Shown one piece after another: positions 3,709-51,100 of a stretch of DNA of 64,000 nucleotides. The translations under genes and the position numbers were made by a program. Origin of the DNA: Mytilus galloprovincialis (taxonomy: Eukaryota; Mollusca; Bivalvia; Mytilida; Mytilidae). Location: assembly GCF_965363235.1 (NCBI RefSeq), contig NC_134846.1, forward strand, positions 3,415,001 through 3,479,000, in the 5' to 3' direction. Below the pieces are notes generated by a model. It was given only the letters and a program-made list of their open reading frames with translations, ran no database searches and was not told where the DNA came from. Numbering within the stretch: the stretch's first letter is position 1; every line of letters starts with the position of its first letter.

Positions 3709-3715
3709 AGTGGAA

Positions 3716-3750
3716 CTGAGACTACTATAAATGTGATATAGTTGTCTCAG
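3716..3750. mobile_element. 35-bp palindromic insertion with 7-bp target duplication
   Basis: The arms CTGAGACTACTATA and TATAGTTGTCTCAG pair with one mismatch around a 7-nt centre. AGTGGAA lies immediately on both sides (3709-3715 and 3751-3757), an exact 7-bp duplication. The terminal sequence is the same as in the copy at 11405-11437, which also has its own 7-bp duplication. Confidence 0.75.
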
Positions 3751-3757
3751 AGTGGAA

Positions 3758-11340: not shown

Positions 11341-11495
11341 GTCAATTTGCATATTGACGTTTTGTAACTTGTCAATTAATAAATTGTCAATTTGTATATT
11401 GATGCTGAGACTACTATATGTGTTATAGTAGTCTCAGATTGATGTTTTGTAACTTGTCGATTCCTAAATTGTCAATTTGTATATTGTGAATTTGT
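11341..11495. repeat. Short AT-rich tandem repeat, interrupted by a palindrome
   Basis: About three copies of a unit near 45 bp containing GTCAATTTGTATATTGATG and TTTTGTAACTTGTC. The 33-bp palindrome at 11405-11437 splits one unit cleanly, which gives an independent view of the empty site. Confidence 0.7.
11405..11437. mobile_element. 33-bp perfect palindromic insertion with 7-bp target duplication
   Basis: CTGAGACTACTATA and its exact reverse complement TATAGTAGTCTCAG flank the 5-nt centre TGTGT. ATTGATG is present on both sides (11398-11404 and 11438-11444). It lies inside a tandem repeat, and removing the palindrome plus one ATTGATG restores the unit. No known mobile unit this short comes to mind; it may be an extreme deletion derivative. 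See 3716-3750 and 23907-23966. Confidence 0.8.
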
Positions 11496-13155: not shown

Positions 13156-16100
13156 TTATTTTCTCTTTCCACCTCCACCTGACAAGATCATAGCTATACG
13201 AATAAATATGTTGACTGTGTCCAAGTATATTCCAATACATCTGAAATTACAAAGAGTAAGGCATTATTTCAAATACTAAGAAGAATTAAAAGAACTTTTA
13301 TGAGAAAGCTTTTATTAATAGAAAAACAAAAGATACGAGGCATCCATACAGTACACAAAATAAGTATATATGCACAGCAAATAAGCACATAAAAAGCAAA
13401 GAAATAGCGCTTTTATTGCTGTTTTTAATCTCAAATTCAAAATGAGGCCTTCAATACAGAGAAAAATAAAAAACTCTCATCTTACTGCAAGTTTAAGACA
13501 ATGAAATCTGAGATAGTTTTACAAGTCACCATTCCCTCCAAAAAAAATCCCCAACTGCAGATTATTTTCAAGATTGAGCTAATACAACATTTTAATAGTT
13601 GCAAATTTATATAGGACCTCAGAAGAAATGAAGGCGCTATCCCAGCAACAAGATTAACAATGGAATAAGTTGCTTTCCCGACCATTTCAGATTTCTCTTT
13701 TTATCAAACTCAACAGAGGACCATGATTATAATGATAGAAAAACCTTTCTAAAAATTTGAAAATAGTCTGATAAGAAACAAAGGTATTCAGACAAGAATC
13801 ATTATTCAATATTTTTACTAGACCACCTTCCCCAATAAACAGTAAACATGGTAAAAGTGATAAAACTTGCAAAGGTTAATTATATGTGTACCTTTTATAG
13901 AAAATATAGGTGTGTCGCAGATCTGAAAAGTTCTTGCAACTTACAACTCATTATAGTCGAGCTGCAGAAAAAATTGTTCTCTCAAACATGTCAAATAGTT
14001 CTGGATAAAAGTGTGACAAATTTATTTTTACTATAATAAACATTGTGAAAGGGTCACATATATGAATATTCACATCATGCATTATATATTACCTAGGATT
14101 ATCCAATTATCTTTATAATCATCTACGGTAATCAACAAAAGTGATAAAACTTCAAAGGCTTATTATAGGTAAAAAAAAGAAAGTCATGAAAGTGTCACAT
14201 ATGAAAAGTGCTCATATGTTACAACTCATTAGGGTCAAGCTGCTCTTGAAATATGAACTACTTTTCAATTGTTCCTGAGAAAGTGTGAAAAAAATGTGTA
14301 CCGGTACATGTGAAAAAAAGAAGCCAAAGATAACCATGTCACAATCAAACTCAAAAGTTGAAAAATAAACTGATAATTGATAGAAAAAGTGAATGCAATA
14401 ATATAACCGCCTAATTGGCAGAAATCAATCATAAACACAGGTGATTCCAGGGGTTTCATTATCTTTCATGTTGACTGGTACTTTCCACGTTTCTAGGTGG
14501 TACTTTTCAATTTATTCCATGAATATCTTATATAAAAATTCCTACATTTAGGCGGTACTTGTCAATAGCATAGGAGGTTAAAGTACAGGGTACCGCCTCC
14601 TAATGAATGGCCTGAGGTGATAAAACTTCTGTAGAATAATTATTTGTACCGTTTTGCCATAGTTATAAATTAACTACTGTGGATTCATTATTATTCGTTA
14701 GATACCAATTATCTTTGATTTCGATGGTACAGTTGAACCACAAATTTAAATGTTCAACAAACTGTATATTTTCTGTAGGTTTGAATGTAGACTTTGGCAA
14801 AACCACGAAATAAAATATCCACTAAAAGACAGGTATTCCTCGATCCACAAAAAATTGGTAACCACGAAGATAAATGAATCCACAGTGATTAGTGCAGGTG
14901 TTGAAAAATAAGTTAAATATAAACTTGCAAGGTTGAAAGTTATTTTAGTTAAAAAGATTACTTGTGAAAAGGCAGAAGAGTACTTATATTTGTACTTTTA
15001 TGTCAGTCAATTAGTGTCGACAGAAATTTAAACTAGAGGCTCTAAAGATCCTGTGTCGCTCACCTTGGTCAACAAAGGACACAGATGGATTCATGACAAA
15101 ATTGTGTTTTGGTAATGGTGATGTGTTTTTAGATTTTACTTTACTTAACATTCTTGCTGCTTACAATTATCTCTATCTATAATGAACTTGGCTCAGTAGT
15201 TTCAGTGTAAAATGTTTGTGAAAATCTACAAGTTTTATGAAAATTGTTAAAAATTGACTACGAAGGGCAATAACTCCTTAGGGGGTCAATTGACCATTTT
15301 GGTCGTCGTGACTTATTTTTAGGTCTTACTTTGCTGAACATTATTGCTGTTTACAGTTTATCTCAATCTATTATAGTATTCAAGGTAATAACCAAAAACA
15401 GCAAAATTTCCTTAAAATTACCAATTGAATTCAGGGGCAGCAACCTAACAACAGGTTGTCCGATTCATCTGAAAATTTCAGGGCTGATAGATCTTGACCT
15501 GATAAACAAATTTACCCCGATCAGATTTGCTCTAAATGCTTTGGTTTTTGAGTTATAAGCCAAAAACTGCATTTTACCCTTATGTTCTATTTTTAGCCAT
15601 GGTGGCCATCTTTGTTGGTTGGCCGAGTTACCGGACACATTTTTAAAACTAGATACCCCAATGATTATTATGGCCAAGTTTGGTTTAATTTGGCCCAGTA
15701 GTTTCAGAGGAGAAGATTTTTCTAAAAGATTATCAAGATTTACGAAAAATGGTTAAAAATTGACTATAAAGGGCAAAAACTCCTAAAGGGGTCAACTGAC
15801 CATTTCGGTCATGTTGACTTATTTGTAGATCTTACTTTGCTGAACATTATCGCTGTTTACATTTTATCTCTTTCTATAATAATATTCAAGATAATAACCA
15901 AAATCTGCAAAATTTCCTTCAAATTACTTATTTCGGGGCAGCAACCCAACAACGGGTTGCCCAATTCATCTGAAAATTTCAGGACAGATAGATCTTGACC
16001 TGATTAACAAATTTACCCCATGTCAGATTTGCTCTAAATGCTTTGGTTTTTGAGTTATAAGCCAAAAACTGCATTTTACCCCTATGTTCTATTTTTAGCC

Positions 16101-19100
16101 ATGGCGGCCATCTTGGTTGGTTGGCCGGGTCACCAGACACATTTTTTAAACTAAATACCCCAATGATGATTGTGGCCAAGTTTGGTTAAATTTGGCCCAG
16201 TAGTTTCAGAGGAGAAGATTTTTGTAAAAGATTACAAAAATTTACAAAAAAATTGTCAAAATTGACTATAAAGGGCAATAACTCCTTAAGGGGTCAACTG
16301 ACCATTATAGTCATATTAACTTATTTGTAGATCTTACTTTGCTGAACATAACTGCTGATTACATTTTATCTCTTTCTATAATAATATTCAAGATAATAAC
16401 CAAAATCTGAAAAAATTCCTTCAAATTACTTATTTCGGGGCAGCAACCCAACAACCCGTTGTCCGATTCATTTGAAAGTTTCAGGGCAGATAGATTTTCA
16501 CTTGATGAACGATTTTACTCCTGTCAGATTTGCTCTAAATGCTTTGGTTTCAGAGATATAAGTCAAAATCTACATTTCACCCCTATGTTCTATTTTTAGC
16601 TATGGCAGCCATCTTGGTTGGTTGGCAGGGTCACGCCACATATTTTTTAAACTAGATACCCCAAAAATGATTGTGGCCAAGTTTGGATTAATTTGGCCCA
16701 GTAGTTTCAGAGGAGAAGATTTTTGTAATAGATTATCAAGATTTACGAAAAATGGTTAAAAATTGAGTATAAAGGGCAATAACTCCTAAAGGGGTCAACT
16801 GACCATTTCGGTCATGTTGACTTATTTGTAAATCTTACTTTTTTTAACATTATTGCTGTATCTGTAATAATATTCAAGATAATAACCAAAAACAGCAAAA
16901 TTTCCTTAAAATTACCAATTCAGGGGCAGCAACCCAACAACCGGTTGTCCGATTCATCTGAAAATTTCAGGGCAGAGAGATCTTGACCTGATAAACAATT
17001 TAACCCCATGTCAGATTTGCTCTAAATGCTTTGGTTTTTGAGTTATAAGCCAAAAACTGCATTTTACCCCTATGTTCTTATTTTTAGCCATGGCAGCCAT
17101 CTTGGTTGGTTGGCAGGGTCACGCCACACATTTTTTAAACTAGATACCCCAATGATGATTGTGGCCAAGTTTGATTAAATTTGGCCCAGTAGTTTCAGAG
17201 GAGAAGATTTTTGTAAAAGTTAACGACGACGGATGACGACGACGACGGACGCCAAGTGATGGGAAAAGCTCACTTGGCCCTTTGGGCCAGGTGAGCTAAA
17301 AAAGGGAAAAGTAAAAAAAAAATTTTAAAAGGCAAAGGGTGCATTTTTTGGCTTTGAAGAAAAAAGAAAGGCTACGGGCACCAATGGTGGCCCATCTTTC
17401 TGTATAAGGCAGACAGACACACTGTCAATACAATACTATCTCCTCAGTTTTATATAATTGCTGAAACAAAAATTCAAATAACAATTTTTGAAATCAAAAC
17501 TTACGCATTTATAGGATCAAACTTTTGCATATCGTAGGGTGGATGACTTTCTGCTTTTTTGATGATTTTCTGTGTGTCATATAATAAGAACATTCCAAAC
17601 AGGACTAATCCACCATAGACACTTATTGAGTATAAACCTGCTCCTAAAGCTGTGGTGGGTGGTAAAAACATACTTCCTGAAAATAAACAGTAGACTTATA
17701 CATGTTATAGTTTTAGGAGTCACCACAATAATTGTCATGCTTTAAAAAGTCTGACGTCCAAGGCTTGAAAAATTGCTTTCAGACTTGTGAAATTCTTCTC
17801 TACAAGCCAACAGAATCCAACTAAAAACTTTGTAAAATTGAGCTTAGGGCTTGTCGATCTAAAATTTATCGTAAAGACTGCCACAAAATAATGCTTAATT
17901 GGTTTTCTTATTTTGTCAATTATGTTTTCATCATGAAATTACGATAAACCTTGCAAATTGTGTTAGCACGTGAACATTTCTTAAATACAAAATGACATGT
18001 GTTGACTGACTGATACTATTTGAAATAAATAAGGTTTATGATCATAAATGACCCCTCTGTTGATTAGCTGGGTTTGTAAACAAACCATAAGCCTCATGTA
18101 GCATTATTGTTATACACTTTACAAAAGAATGTCACTTACCAAGTGAAGATGCAAATACAAATCCGAGACCAATAGCAAGAGGTCCTCCCATATTCAGGAA
18201 CTTCTCACTTGGAGCACACATTGCAACTGTAGAAAGACCTGTTTGAATGCAAACACATAAAGTATTAATTTTTAACTATAAACAGAGAATATATTTTTTA
18301 CTATAAATTTAGTCTCACAGTCAAAATTATTGAAAGATTTCTTTTGTTTAATCCAAAACAAATTGGGACTCGTTGCTTTATTCCCCCCCCCCCCCCCCTT
18401 TTTTTTGTTTCAAATACTGTGGATTCATTTATTTTCGTGGGTACCAATTTTCTGTGGTTTGAGGAAAATTTGCATATTTGTGGATATTTAAATTTGTGGT
18501 TTTGGCAAATTCTGCATACATTCCTGTAGACAATTTGTAATTCGTTGAACATTTGAATTTGTGATTCTCCTGTACCCACGAAATCCATGAATATTAGTAT
18601 TCAACGAATAATAATGAATCCACAGTATTTCAATCCAAAACAAATTAGGAATCTCATTGCATTGTCATTTTTGAGTATTCTATTCTTTATGGTTTTCAAG
18701 TGCAAATGTACTTGTATTTAATATTTAATGTAGACTAGGAGTTTACTTTTTTGGCCCCTTACATGTAAAAATTAACCACAGTACACATATTTTAAATCTA
18801 TAAATAACATACGTGAAGTTGTTCATAAAACAACATTACCTCTTAATACAATGGTACTTGTATTTTATATTTGTAAATTGTCTGTTTTATATTGTGTATA
18901 TATTATTTATGTATTGCAAGAAGGGAAACTATAATAAAATATTGAATCTGAATCTCTTCCTACATTTCTTTTCTACATTTAAAAATGGAAGGCTGTACAT
19001 TGACATATAATGATTTACTTTTTTTAAATTGTTATTTGGATGGAGAGTTGTCTCATTCGTACTCACACCACATCTTCCTATAACTGTAGTAAGTCAGGAA

Positions 19101-23053: not shown

Positions 23054-23213
23054 CAGTCTTCACGCTGAGTGGCAGCCCAGGCAGCCCAGGCTTGTAAAAT
23101 TGCTCTCGGGCCTGTAAAAATCATATCTACAGGCCAACAGAGTCTAACTAAAAATTTTCAAAAATTGAGCTCTGGGCCTGTAGTGTAGATTTAAAAGTTC
23201 ATCGTGAAGACTG
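23054..23213. mobile_element. 160-bp MITE with CAGTCTTCACG ends
   Basis: CAGTCTTCACG at the left and CGTGAAGACTG at the right are perfect inverted repeats. GTTTTG lies on both sides (23048-23053 and 23214-23219), an apparent 6-bp target duplication. The internal CTACAGGCCAACAGAGTC block is shared with 17748-17880. Confidence 0.75.
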
Positions 23214-23714: not shown

Positions 23715-23906
23715 TTCACAGGTAATTCCTGCCTCATATTAATAACAATATTGTATTAATTTAATTTTTTAAATCATGTAAATAGGGACCATCGTTTATT
23801 TTTTGTTCTTTAGAACATTAACTTCACTATGTTACAAGTCCTTTGTTTGCATGTTTATACTGGCTTTAAGCCCGATTTTTCATCTGAAAAAAACCCTGGT
23901 AGAAAT

Positions 23907-23966
23907 CTAAGACTACTTTAACAAGCTAAAAGGAATTGACAAATCTCTGTGTTATACTAGTCTCAG
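23907..23966. mobile_element. 60-bp relative of the 7-bp-duplication palindromes
   Basis: The ends CTAAGACTACTTTA and TATACTAGTCTCAG match the 33-35 bp palindromes with a few changes, but 32 nt separate them. Flanks TAGAAAT (23900-23906) and TATAAAT (23967-23973) agree at 6 of 7 positions. This may be a longer, older form from which the short ones are deletion derivatives. Confidence 0.5.
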
Positions 23967-24111
23967 TATAAATCAAATATATTTTATGGTATAAACATGA
24001 AACAAATTTAAAGTTTAGTTGGCTGGAGCAGCACAAGCAGCAGTTGGTCCATATAAACAAAAGCACATTTCTGTAACAATGTACTACATGACATCTGGTT
24101 TTGAGTATATT

Positions 24112-48185: not shown

Positions 48186-51100
48186 ATGATGAATGTGCAC
48201 AGAATTCTTCAGCCAAGTTCAAAGTTTATAAAGGGCTTAACAGTACAGTGCTATTCATGTCGTACTTCCACAACCATTGCAGATGCCAGAAATGAACCAC
48301 CGCTATCTGCGGATGTTAAACCATTCAATCAAGTCCCTGGGCCTCGAGGACTTTATAACATACCTTACCTTGGCGCGGCATTACATTTTAAACCTTTTAG
48401 TAAGTATACGGATGGAGTGTAATATCTTTGCACATGGTATTTTAAATATTGTTTTGAGACCGAGATAGGTTTTGATACGACATATTTAAAATTGAAATAT
48501 TAATCTGTGATGCAGTAGGACAACAGGATGTGCCTTTTTGGCCAAAATGTGATTCGGCGGCGCTCAGTAGTCAAACAATGGCCGCCATTACGTATTGACA
48601 ACGTCGTTGGGTGAAGCGTATCACTTATCCTGGTTCCCGGTACTACGATTCAGGTATTAGCTGATAGCCATACGCTATATTGGTATATGTGTAACATACT
48701 GAATATTGCGATCGGGAACCAGTCTACGTATCACTGAGCACCGAAATCCTTACTCAGTCGCTTCCAGTTATCCTATTAACGTGTCAATATTGGTACATAT
48801 GAAAATCAGCTCAATGACGATAATCACTTAGGGACATACATGTATGTCAGGTGAAGTTTTCGTATGGCTAGTCGAATTTTTATCGAAGTTGATTTGATAT
48901 CAAATTGAATAAATATAACCGGTCAACAGTAAGTATATCTTGTTTCGATAATCAAATTTCATATATAATAGATATAAGAAGATGTGGTATGATCAGTGCT
49001 AATAAGACAACTCTCCATCCAAGTCACAATTTATAAACGTAAACCATTATAGATCAAAGTACGGTCTTCAAAACGGAAACTTGGCTAACACCAATCTAAT
49101 TAAAAACCGATCTCTCATCGCTCCTGTTTCTGATATGTCGCGTGGGAGATCTAACGAAACCGGCTTTGAGGTCACATGTGAGTGAACTAAAAGTCATGAA
49201 TTTATAAAGATATGCAAATGAGTTGACGACCTATTAATAAGCCAATCAAAAAAGTTTATGAATTATTATGACTGACGATTTCGTCGTAAATAAAATGAGT
49301 TACATCCCTTTGCCTTACGTTAAACTTCCAAGATCGTGGAAGACTCAATTTCATTGGTCGAAAAAGACACACCTACGAGGTCACTCACATGTGACCTCAA
49401 AGCGGGGTTTCGTTTAACTTAGATCTCCCACGCGACATATCAGAAACAGGAGCGATGAGAGATCGGTTTTTAATTAGCGACATATCAGAAACAGGAGCGA
49501 TGAGAGATCGGTTTTTAATTAGATTGGGCTAACACCGACCAGCAAGCTATAAAAGGCCGCAAAAATGACAAGTGTAAAACCATTCAAACGGGAAAACCAA
49601 CGGTCTAATCTATATAAAACTTGAAACGAGAAATATGTATGAACCACATAAACAAAGACAACCACTGAACACCAGGTTCCTGACTTAGGACAGTTGAAAA
49701 AAAATGCAGTGGGTTTAAACGTTTTAATGTACAACCTTCACTCTTATCTGAAACAATAGTGTAACATCACAACATAGTAAGACACACTATATAAAATATC
49801 AATTGAAATTGCTTAAATTAACTGAATCAAACGACATATTAACACAAACGTTAAGTGAATATACACTGAACGAATAAATTTGATCTATAATTCAATGTTA
49901 ATACAAAATCAATCAAATAAGGGATGAAATGTTAAACAATTTCAGAAACACAACCATAACCTTGAACAAAATGGCCGCCAAATAGAATAATATACACATG
50001 ACATTATATATATAATGAGGATCATATGTTCAAGAAGGTAACGAAAGAGTTTTAGCTTTGCATAATTGATAGTATGGGTCATTTGAAGAACAGAAATATA
50101 TTTTCCTTTTTTATATCTGCTAAACAATCATCATTGTACATTGACCGCAGAAATTGTATTTAAAAAACCCCCAACATTTCAACAATTTATGATTCGTTTC
50201 ATAAAAAATAAAATGATTTGTTATCTTTTATTTATAGGTAAATATCAACCAGGTGATGTCAATATTGTACTGGACAACTTAAAACAAAAATACGGGGATA
50301 TATACAAGATACAATTTGGACCAAACAAGATGGTAATCCTAAGTCACCCAGACTATGCTAAAACCGTCCTTCAAGCACATTATGAGCAGCATGAGAAGAT
50401 TGGTTTTGATATAAGTAACATTTTTCATAAGAGAACTAAAACCACAAAGGGAATGGTTTTACTGTAAGTATGACGTTAATGTTGAGAATCATATGGAACA
50501 TATCATGTCTTCTTTTTGTTTTTTTTGCATCTACAGAAAACCCTAAATGCGCGAAACTGCGGATCAATATCTAAAACTTAAATCAAAACAGAAAATCTGG
50601 CACCTACAAACTCACAAAATACCATCAGATATTAAGTAACGATAAAAATAAAAAATTGAACTTGGAACAAAAACTATGCAGCAAACCACTCCATCCACAG
50701 TATCAGATATGTCAACTATTGACCAATGAAATGCGATGTGAGAAAGTTTGTTTTTGTGACACCAAAAAGTATGTTACGATATAAATCAAGTTGTTGATGA
50801 AGATGATGATATGATTATGGATAAACATGGCAAATGTCACATGCATATCAGGACGAGAACTTGTTAATGTGTCACTGATATAAGCCTGGTTTTAACGAAC
50901 TTACTTGCTCACAAGGTTACCTAGACCCGGACGCATGGTTTGAATCCGAACTGTTTAGTCGTTGGTGGTCTTGCTCCTAATGCCGCGTTCATAGCGCGGA
51001 AACGCAGCAAATTACAACTTAACCTTTGACCTAACCGAGTCATGATACTTTTACGCTGACGTAATATTCATTGTCCTTCATTTTCCGCTGTTATATTAGA

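Follow-up and report, generated by a model that had tools for sequence, protein, structure and literature searches.

What process leaves a 33-bp perfect palindrome between two identical 7-bp sequences, inside a tandem repeat? The palindrome lies in the window, the whole 64,000-nucleotide stretch of Mytilus galloprovincialis DNA analysed here, in which positions 11398-11444 read directly as ATTGATG, 33 bp, and ATTGATG (47 bp in total). Its composition is CTGAGACTACTATA TGTGT TATAGTAGTCTCAG, that is, 14 perfect pairs about five central bases. The evidence described below makes it very probable that 11405-11437 is the excision scar of a cut-and-paste transposon of the P superfamily, in which the two remaining end stubs were end-joined.

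The insertion site

An earlier note on this DNA had described a 33-bp perfect palindrome with an exact 7-bp target duplication in a tandem repeat that reveals the empty site, and each of these points holds. The arms pair exactly over 14 bp. The left (11398-11404) and right (11438-11444) copies of ATTGATG match at the 7-bp offset only, with 0–4 bases matching at offsets of 4–6 and 8–11, which bears out a target-site duplication of that length. The 33-bp insert is hosted by a 45-bp tandem repeat; when the insert and one duplicate are deleted, the remaining sequence is identical at 40/45 positions to the adjacent insert-free unit (11341-11385), which serves as the empty-site comparator.

Genome-wide distribution of palindromes and target-site duplications

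The earlier note had proposed a genome-wide search for the arms, and in the 1.385-Gb assembly of the host this search returned many copies: at least 707 palindromes of 20–50 bp and 38 of exactly 33 bp, with none found by the reversed-pattern control in either case. Flanks were compared in 74 candidate units, found mechanically in the sampled loci and in the window. The 7-bp duplication is perfect in 39/74 and matches at six of seven positions in 13/74, and it falls below 6/7 in the other 22. When the comparison is shifted by 1, 2, 3, or 5 bases, matches of at least 6/7 occur in 1, 0, 0, and 0 of the 74 units, respectively. Coincidence, which the same note had associated with few copies and unduplicated flanks, is thereby refuted. 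The 7-bp duplications read nTTnAAn, a palindromic target motif, with T at −3 in 31/39 sites and A at +9 in 29/39 (unsymmetrised counts).

Ends were also sampled individually by mechanically sorting the first 100 of the 2,024 places that match the terminal 14 nt, all of them on contig C1. Sixty-two of these ends fall in 47 distinct palindromic units with a 6–7/7 duplication, 11 occur in palindromes lacking such a duplication, and 27 lack any partner within 110 bp. Of these 27, 23 retain no more than 20 nt of the terminal repeat and four retain at least 21.

A hairpin or cruciform process, or chance, could in principle generate palindromes without any transposon. The units are near-perfect hairpins, and eight palindromes with matching arms, unrelated to those of the mussel, turned up on bacterial and viral contigs in scans of prokaryotes and viruses. 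However, these eight show no 7-bp duplication by eye, the reversed controls for the palindrome pattern returned nothing, and long elements share both the ends and the duplications of the short units (see below). An origin of this kind is already refuted by the duplications and the long elements, and the chance that it applies is negligible; the hairpin-resolution process raised in the earlier note is set aside on the same grounds.

Long elements that share the palindrome ends

The ends of the palindromes also bound long elements. L043 (3,494 bp) and L099 (5,927 bp) have inverted ends of 32 bp and L100 (4,466 bp) has inverted ends of 35 bp; their 7-bp duplications match at 6/7, 7/7, and 7/7 positions, respectively. 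With L101 (7/7) and L102, where a duplication was looked for and none was found, four of the five long pairs checked carry the duplication, three perfectly and one at 6/7. Long ends are scarce, with 42 exact matches to the first 31 nt of the terminal inverted repeat (TIR) and 76 when up to three mismatches are allowed. None of the four long copies L043, L099, L100, and L101 contains an intact transposase. A Pfam comparison of ten reading frames, taken from these long copies (L043, L099, and L100), yielded one match above its cut-off, a C2H2 zinc finger (PF00096), in addition to weaker ones that fell short of theirs.

Three further loci show rearranged or composite structures. At L102 (G000 C4:7036700-7037680), several family ends are nested in a stretch of ~830 bp together with inverted copies of flanking sequence. 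The locus at C1:24763454-24773393 (L044, L045; G000) was considered as an autonomous copy and rejected, as it consists of two stubs of 16–17 nt with a 6/7 duplication that enclose 9.9 kb with scrambled L100-like pieces; perhaps this was a break filled by template switching. Finally, a 190-bp derivative present in at least two copies (L050:3885-4074 and L096-L097) combines a long terminal repeat on the left with a palindrome of ~39 bp as its right end; a scar may have been incorporated into a mobile unit.

When the 32-bp TIR of L043, L099, and L100 is aligned to the palindrome at 11405-11437, the left 14 nt (11405-11418, forward strand) are the first 14 nt of the TIR and the right 19 nt (11419-11437, reverse strand) are its first 19 nt, joined without filler (14+19=33). 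The window contains two further copies. CTGAGACTAC, with at most one mismatch, occurs 11 times in the window compared to 1.65 expected, and none of 100 shuffles reaches 11, so the palindromes exceed chance. Five of these matches sit in an unrelated repeat of ~500 bp at 15–17 kb, and the remaining six correspond to the two ends of each of three palindromes: 3716-3750, 11405-11437, and 23907-23966. The first of these, a 35-bp scar, is flanked by AGTGGAA at 3709-3715 and 3751-3757 (7/7). By our own reading of the letters it consists of 15 nt, 1 nt, and a 19-nt stub (17/19 identical); its computed TIR retention is 15 and 14 nt. The third palindrome, which is absent from the earlier note and was found in this analysis, is a 60-bp remnant between TAGAAAT (23900-23906) and TATAAAT (23967-23973; 6/7). 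It contains a short left stub and about 36 nt of the right TIR, with 91.7% identity to L043 over 36 bp, and is a longer derivative, unlike a plain two-stub scar.

A 19-nt limit on retained terminal sequence

In the genome, the first 14 nt of the TIR are matched exactly at 2,024 places, the first 19 nt at 769, the first 21 nt at 67, and the first 31 nt at 42, all of these counts being lower bounds; the corresponding reversed-pattern controls number 9, 0, 0, and 0. Ends are thus lost unevenly along the repeat: 62 percent between 14 and 19 nt, 91 percent between 19 and 21 nt, and 37 percent of the remainder between 21 and 31 nt. The same cliff is present in the first 50 of the 707 palindromes in genome order, for which the search pattern bounds length at 50 bp; of their 100 ends, 30 keep exactly 19 nt, two keep 20 nt, and none keeps 21 or more. 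In the overlapping set of 52 units with a 6–7/7 duplication (104 ends, one mismatch allowed), 19 nt are kept at 30 ends, 20 nt at three, and more at two, the latter belonging to L053 and the 60-bp remnant at 23907-23966. A stop at 19 nt points to a long staggered cut at the donor site that would leave tails of terminal repeat; the strand polarity of this cut is our inference.

Three short remnants keep more than 19 nt at one side, namely the 60-bp remnant in the window, L053 (89 bp), and L048 (99 bp, with a duplication of 4/7 only), indicating that some are other than plain scars. These could be products of aborted gap repair, in which copying from a sister copy stops early and end joining leaves internally deleted elements. 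Aborted gap repair is reported to account for most wild-type products of P{wa} excision in flies (PMC2895639), and it fits all three remnants, including the approximately 36 nt of right TIR in the window copy. However, it predicts lengths past 19 nt, and just 67 of the 769 19-nt ends reach 21 nt. It would therefore describe a minor class, and as the general explanation of the short units it is highly unlikely.

Junction diversity and the proposed excision scar

The 50 palindromes comprise 42 distinct sequences with lengths of 24–48 bp. Their 42 distinct junctions divide into four with overlapping stubs, five that are blunt, 11 with 1–3 extra nucleotides, and 22 with at least four. Identifiable classes include 19+19 (38 bp), 14+19 (the 33-mer at 11405-11437), 13+19 in which the stubs share one base (31 bp), and a form of 24 bp with a TATA overlap; some junction sequences repeat, up to four times among the 50. 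The filler is templated: the longest word that an insert has in common with the 19-nt tail averages 5.65 over 20 distinct inserts, compared to 3.81 in shuffles, and none of 3,000 shuffles reaches the observed value. In a few cases, part of this filler may be mutated arm sequence. Stub overlap in 4/42 junctions and templated filler are both of the type associated with polymerase theta, and the repair route may have been polymerase-theta-like end joining.

The parent element, with inverted ends of 32–35 bp that start CTGAGACTACTATAACACAGAGATTGGTCACT, would have inserted and duplicated 7 bp of target. On excision, its transposase would cut the transferred strand at the edge of the element and its partner strand 19 nt further in, at either end, so that each flank would retain 19 nt of terminal repeat as a 3' tail. 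Such tails would be near-identical and non-complementary, and would for that reason be sealed by error-prone end joining, with trimming, short homologies, or templated filler. As both stubs derive from inverted ends, the product would be a palindrome between two target duplications. In the case of 11405-11437, one tail would have been cut back to 14 nt and the other kept at its full 19 nt, with no filler added.

Short palindromes with target duplications might also be read as an ultra-short mobile element, an inverted-repeat-only unit of 33–38 bp that resembles a minimal MITE and is copied in trans. MITEs, of which human MADE1 is an example, are short, have inverted ends and a target duplication, and occur in many copies. 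The mussel units likewise have many copies, the majority of those read have their own 7-bp duplication, an identical 31-bp unit occurs in L028, L047, and L056 with differing duplications, and a few centres are common to most of the 38 units of 33 bp. The P-MITEs of Anopheles (PMC1562414) are similar in being short and numerous with inverted ends and target duplications, but MITEs are mobile and have a common internal sequence, whereas the mussel units share end stubs and have mostly private centres. No MITE-type internal sequence common to the units was found, given 42 distinct sequences among 50 and their range of lengths; filler is templated, 27 of 100 ends lack a partner, and retention stops sharply at 19 nt throughout the genome. 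The units also hold less end sequence than insect P elements are reported to need: the minimum for mobility of deleted P elements in D. melanogaster is 138 bp and 216 bp of end sequence, and a requirement of about 100 bp at each end is suggested for Anopheles (PMC1562414).

We consider an ultra-short mobile element very improbable. The earlier note had offered both this possibility, a 33-bp unit mobilised in trans, and the footprint of an excision; the former is not supported, given the diversity of sequences, the partnerless ends, and the 19-nt stop, and the latter gains from the same stop and from the diversity of junctions. Mostly private centres, ends without partners, and a fixed limit on retention are what the joining of cleavage stubs should produce, and a single sequence that replicates should not. 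The scar reading also carries a warning that "MITE-like" palindromes of very small size, even with target duplications, can be gravestones instead of movers.

The excision scar reading has a close counterpart in laboratory flies. P{wa} excision junctions described in 2010 consist of an 8-bp duplication, up to 17 nt of one end, an insert or microhomology, up to 17 nt of the other end, and the duplication again (PMC2895639). The order of parts, duplication, stub, optional microhomology or templated insert, stub, and duplication, is the same in the mussel. However, the P{wa} junctions (PMC2895639) arose from breaks at a single site in laboratory flies, where the tails are 17 nt and the duplication 8 bp long, whereas the mussel palindromes number in the hundreds, are natural, and have stubs of up to 19 nt and 7-bp duplications. 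This kind of scar is thus already known; what is new is its occurrence as a natural archive, the stop at 19 nt, and the numerical excess of scars compared to elements. A search of the PMC-licensed literature recognised no catalogue of natural P-type scars by title or opening of the abstract, which leaves the absence of one unproven, and the main text of a paper on bivalve transposons (PMC10294476) contains neither "P element" nor "footprint". If the scars are real, a single assembly would reveal both the cut position of a transposase and the repair habits of the germline without experiment, and the reading predicts a stagger of 19 nt beside the known case of 17 nt.

Probable relationship to the P superfamily

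The parent family has a 7-bp target duplication, terminal inverted repeats of 32–35 bp, and a palindromic target motif. Within the P superfamily, terminal inverted repeats are 13 bp long in zebrafish and 31 bp long in Drosophila (PMC7776569 for the latter). The Drosophila P element, with its 31-bp terminal repeats, long 3' stagger, and target consensus, resembles the parent family as proposed here, and differs in its 8-bp duplication and 17-nt stagger (PMC7776569) and in its ends, which start CATGATG (PMC2895639). 1360 (PMC3276498) and Galileo (PMC4168063) are members of the superfamily with 7-bp duplications and with the targets GTTNAAC and GTATTAC, which are near the nTTnAAn of the mussel family; Galileo differs in having long terminal repeats. 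Neither a scar catalogue nor a cut position was found in the passages on 1360 and Galileo that were consulted (PMC3276498, PMC4168063).

The P-transposase domain PF21787 occurs at 51 places in the genome. One family with this domain encodes a 917-aa frame with three TNP-like domains. An RNase H domain and a GTP-binding insertion are present in this frame, which matches the solved P transposase structure 6p5a (E 9e-14). The right end of this element, located where two copies diverge and read on the reverse strand, is CAGAGACATGTATACTAAAGAGATG; it agrees with the family TIR at 21/32 positions in a fixed register, a score reached by none of 200,000 shuffles, the comparison being of the right end only. 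The two families also have a second gene in common. The C2H2-coding fragment of L100 is found at 43 places. At eight of them a PF21787 match lies no more than 10 kb away, on the opposite strand; another eight are within 10 kb of a long end of the palindrome family, five of these inside a pair. In the copy on contig C11, the fragment is internal to the P element, at a distance of about 0.4 kb from its right end. The sister family itself accounts for only two palindromes, one of which keeps exactly 19 nt on one side. Based on the 21/32 end match, the shared second gene, the duplication length, and the palindromic target, the parent element probably belongs to the P superfamily.

Four of the P elements (L103-L106; G000 C11:21217119, C5:8634294, C4:40717541, and C12:21432759) are about 99 percent identical, with stop-free frames of 908–917 aa, and are probably young. 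Three of the four have a match to the C2H2 second gene downstream on the opposite strand.

The scars could instead derive from cut-and-paste elements outside the P superfamily that likewise have 7-bp duplications and a long stagger. In favor of this possibility, no transposase was found in L043, L099, L100, or L101, and even the closest of the 51 PF21787 matches is 119 kb away from any of the 76 long-TIR ends. Moreover, none of the eight P-transposase frames of L103-L110 matched L043, L059, L099, L100, or L101 at better than E 2, or any of the loci L009-L102 at E 0.001. The similarity of the TIR to that of the P element and the common second gene argue against it, as does the combination of a 7-bp duplication and a palindromic target that is also seen in 1360 and Galileo. 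We regard a superfamily other than P as improbable. Dada, which makes 6–7-bp duplications, inserts in small-RNA genes, and has described families without terminal inverted repeats (PMC3706591), was rejected, as the parent elements have long terminal inverted repeats and an Rfam search of the window returned no match at the gathering threshold.

Excess of probable scars over long elements

The pattern that found the 707 palindromes would count 34 of the 52 duplication-bearing units, which extrapolates to roughly 1,100 two-ended scars, or about a thousand genome-wide; this estimate is rough and depends on an uneven sample. As at most 76 long ends were found, scars outnumber long elements by about tenfold or more, both figures being lower bounds. 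On this reading, the ratio of excision to retention of a cut-and-paste family becomes countable. Candidate causes of the excess are a purge, poor repair from a template, and age. We tentatively suggest the first of these, a doubtful but not negligible possibility, in which a P-type family was cut out almost wholesale and the inheritance of cuts far exceeded that of reinsertions or of repair from a template. The agent could perhaps be a transposase supplied in trans by a sister element, or a domesticated one. If a purge did occur, the scars would record both the cut (19 nt compared to 17) and the germline repair pathway.

Other repeats in the window

Three other repeats were identified in the window. 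At 49092-49526, a 435-bp inverted-repeat element with CAATCTAATTAAAAACCGAT ends is flanked by a perfect 9-bp duplication, GGCTAACAC; its end sequence recurs inside L059. A 160-bp unit at 23054-23213 has CAGTCTTCACG as its inverted ends and is flanked by a 6-bp repeat, GTTTTG. The region 15001-17260 contains a tandem array of the ~500-bp repeat followed by a TTGGCCCTTTGGGCCAGGTGAGCT palindrome.
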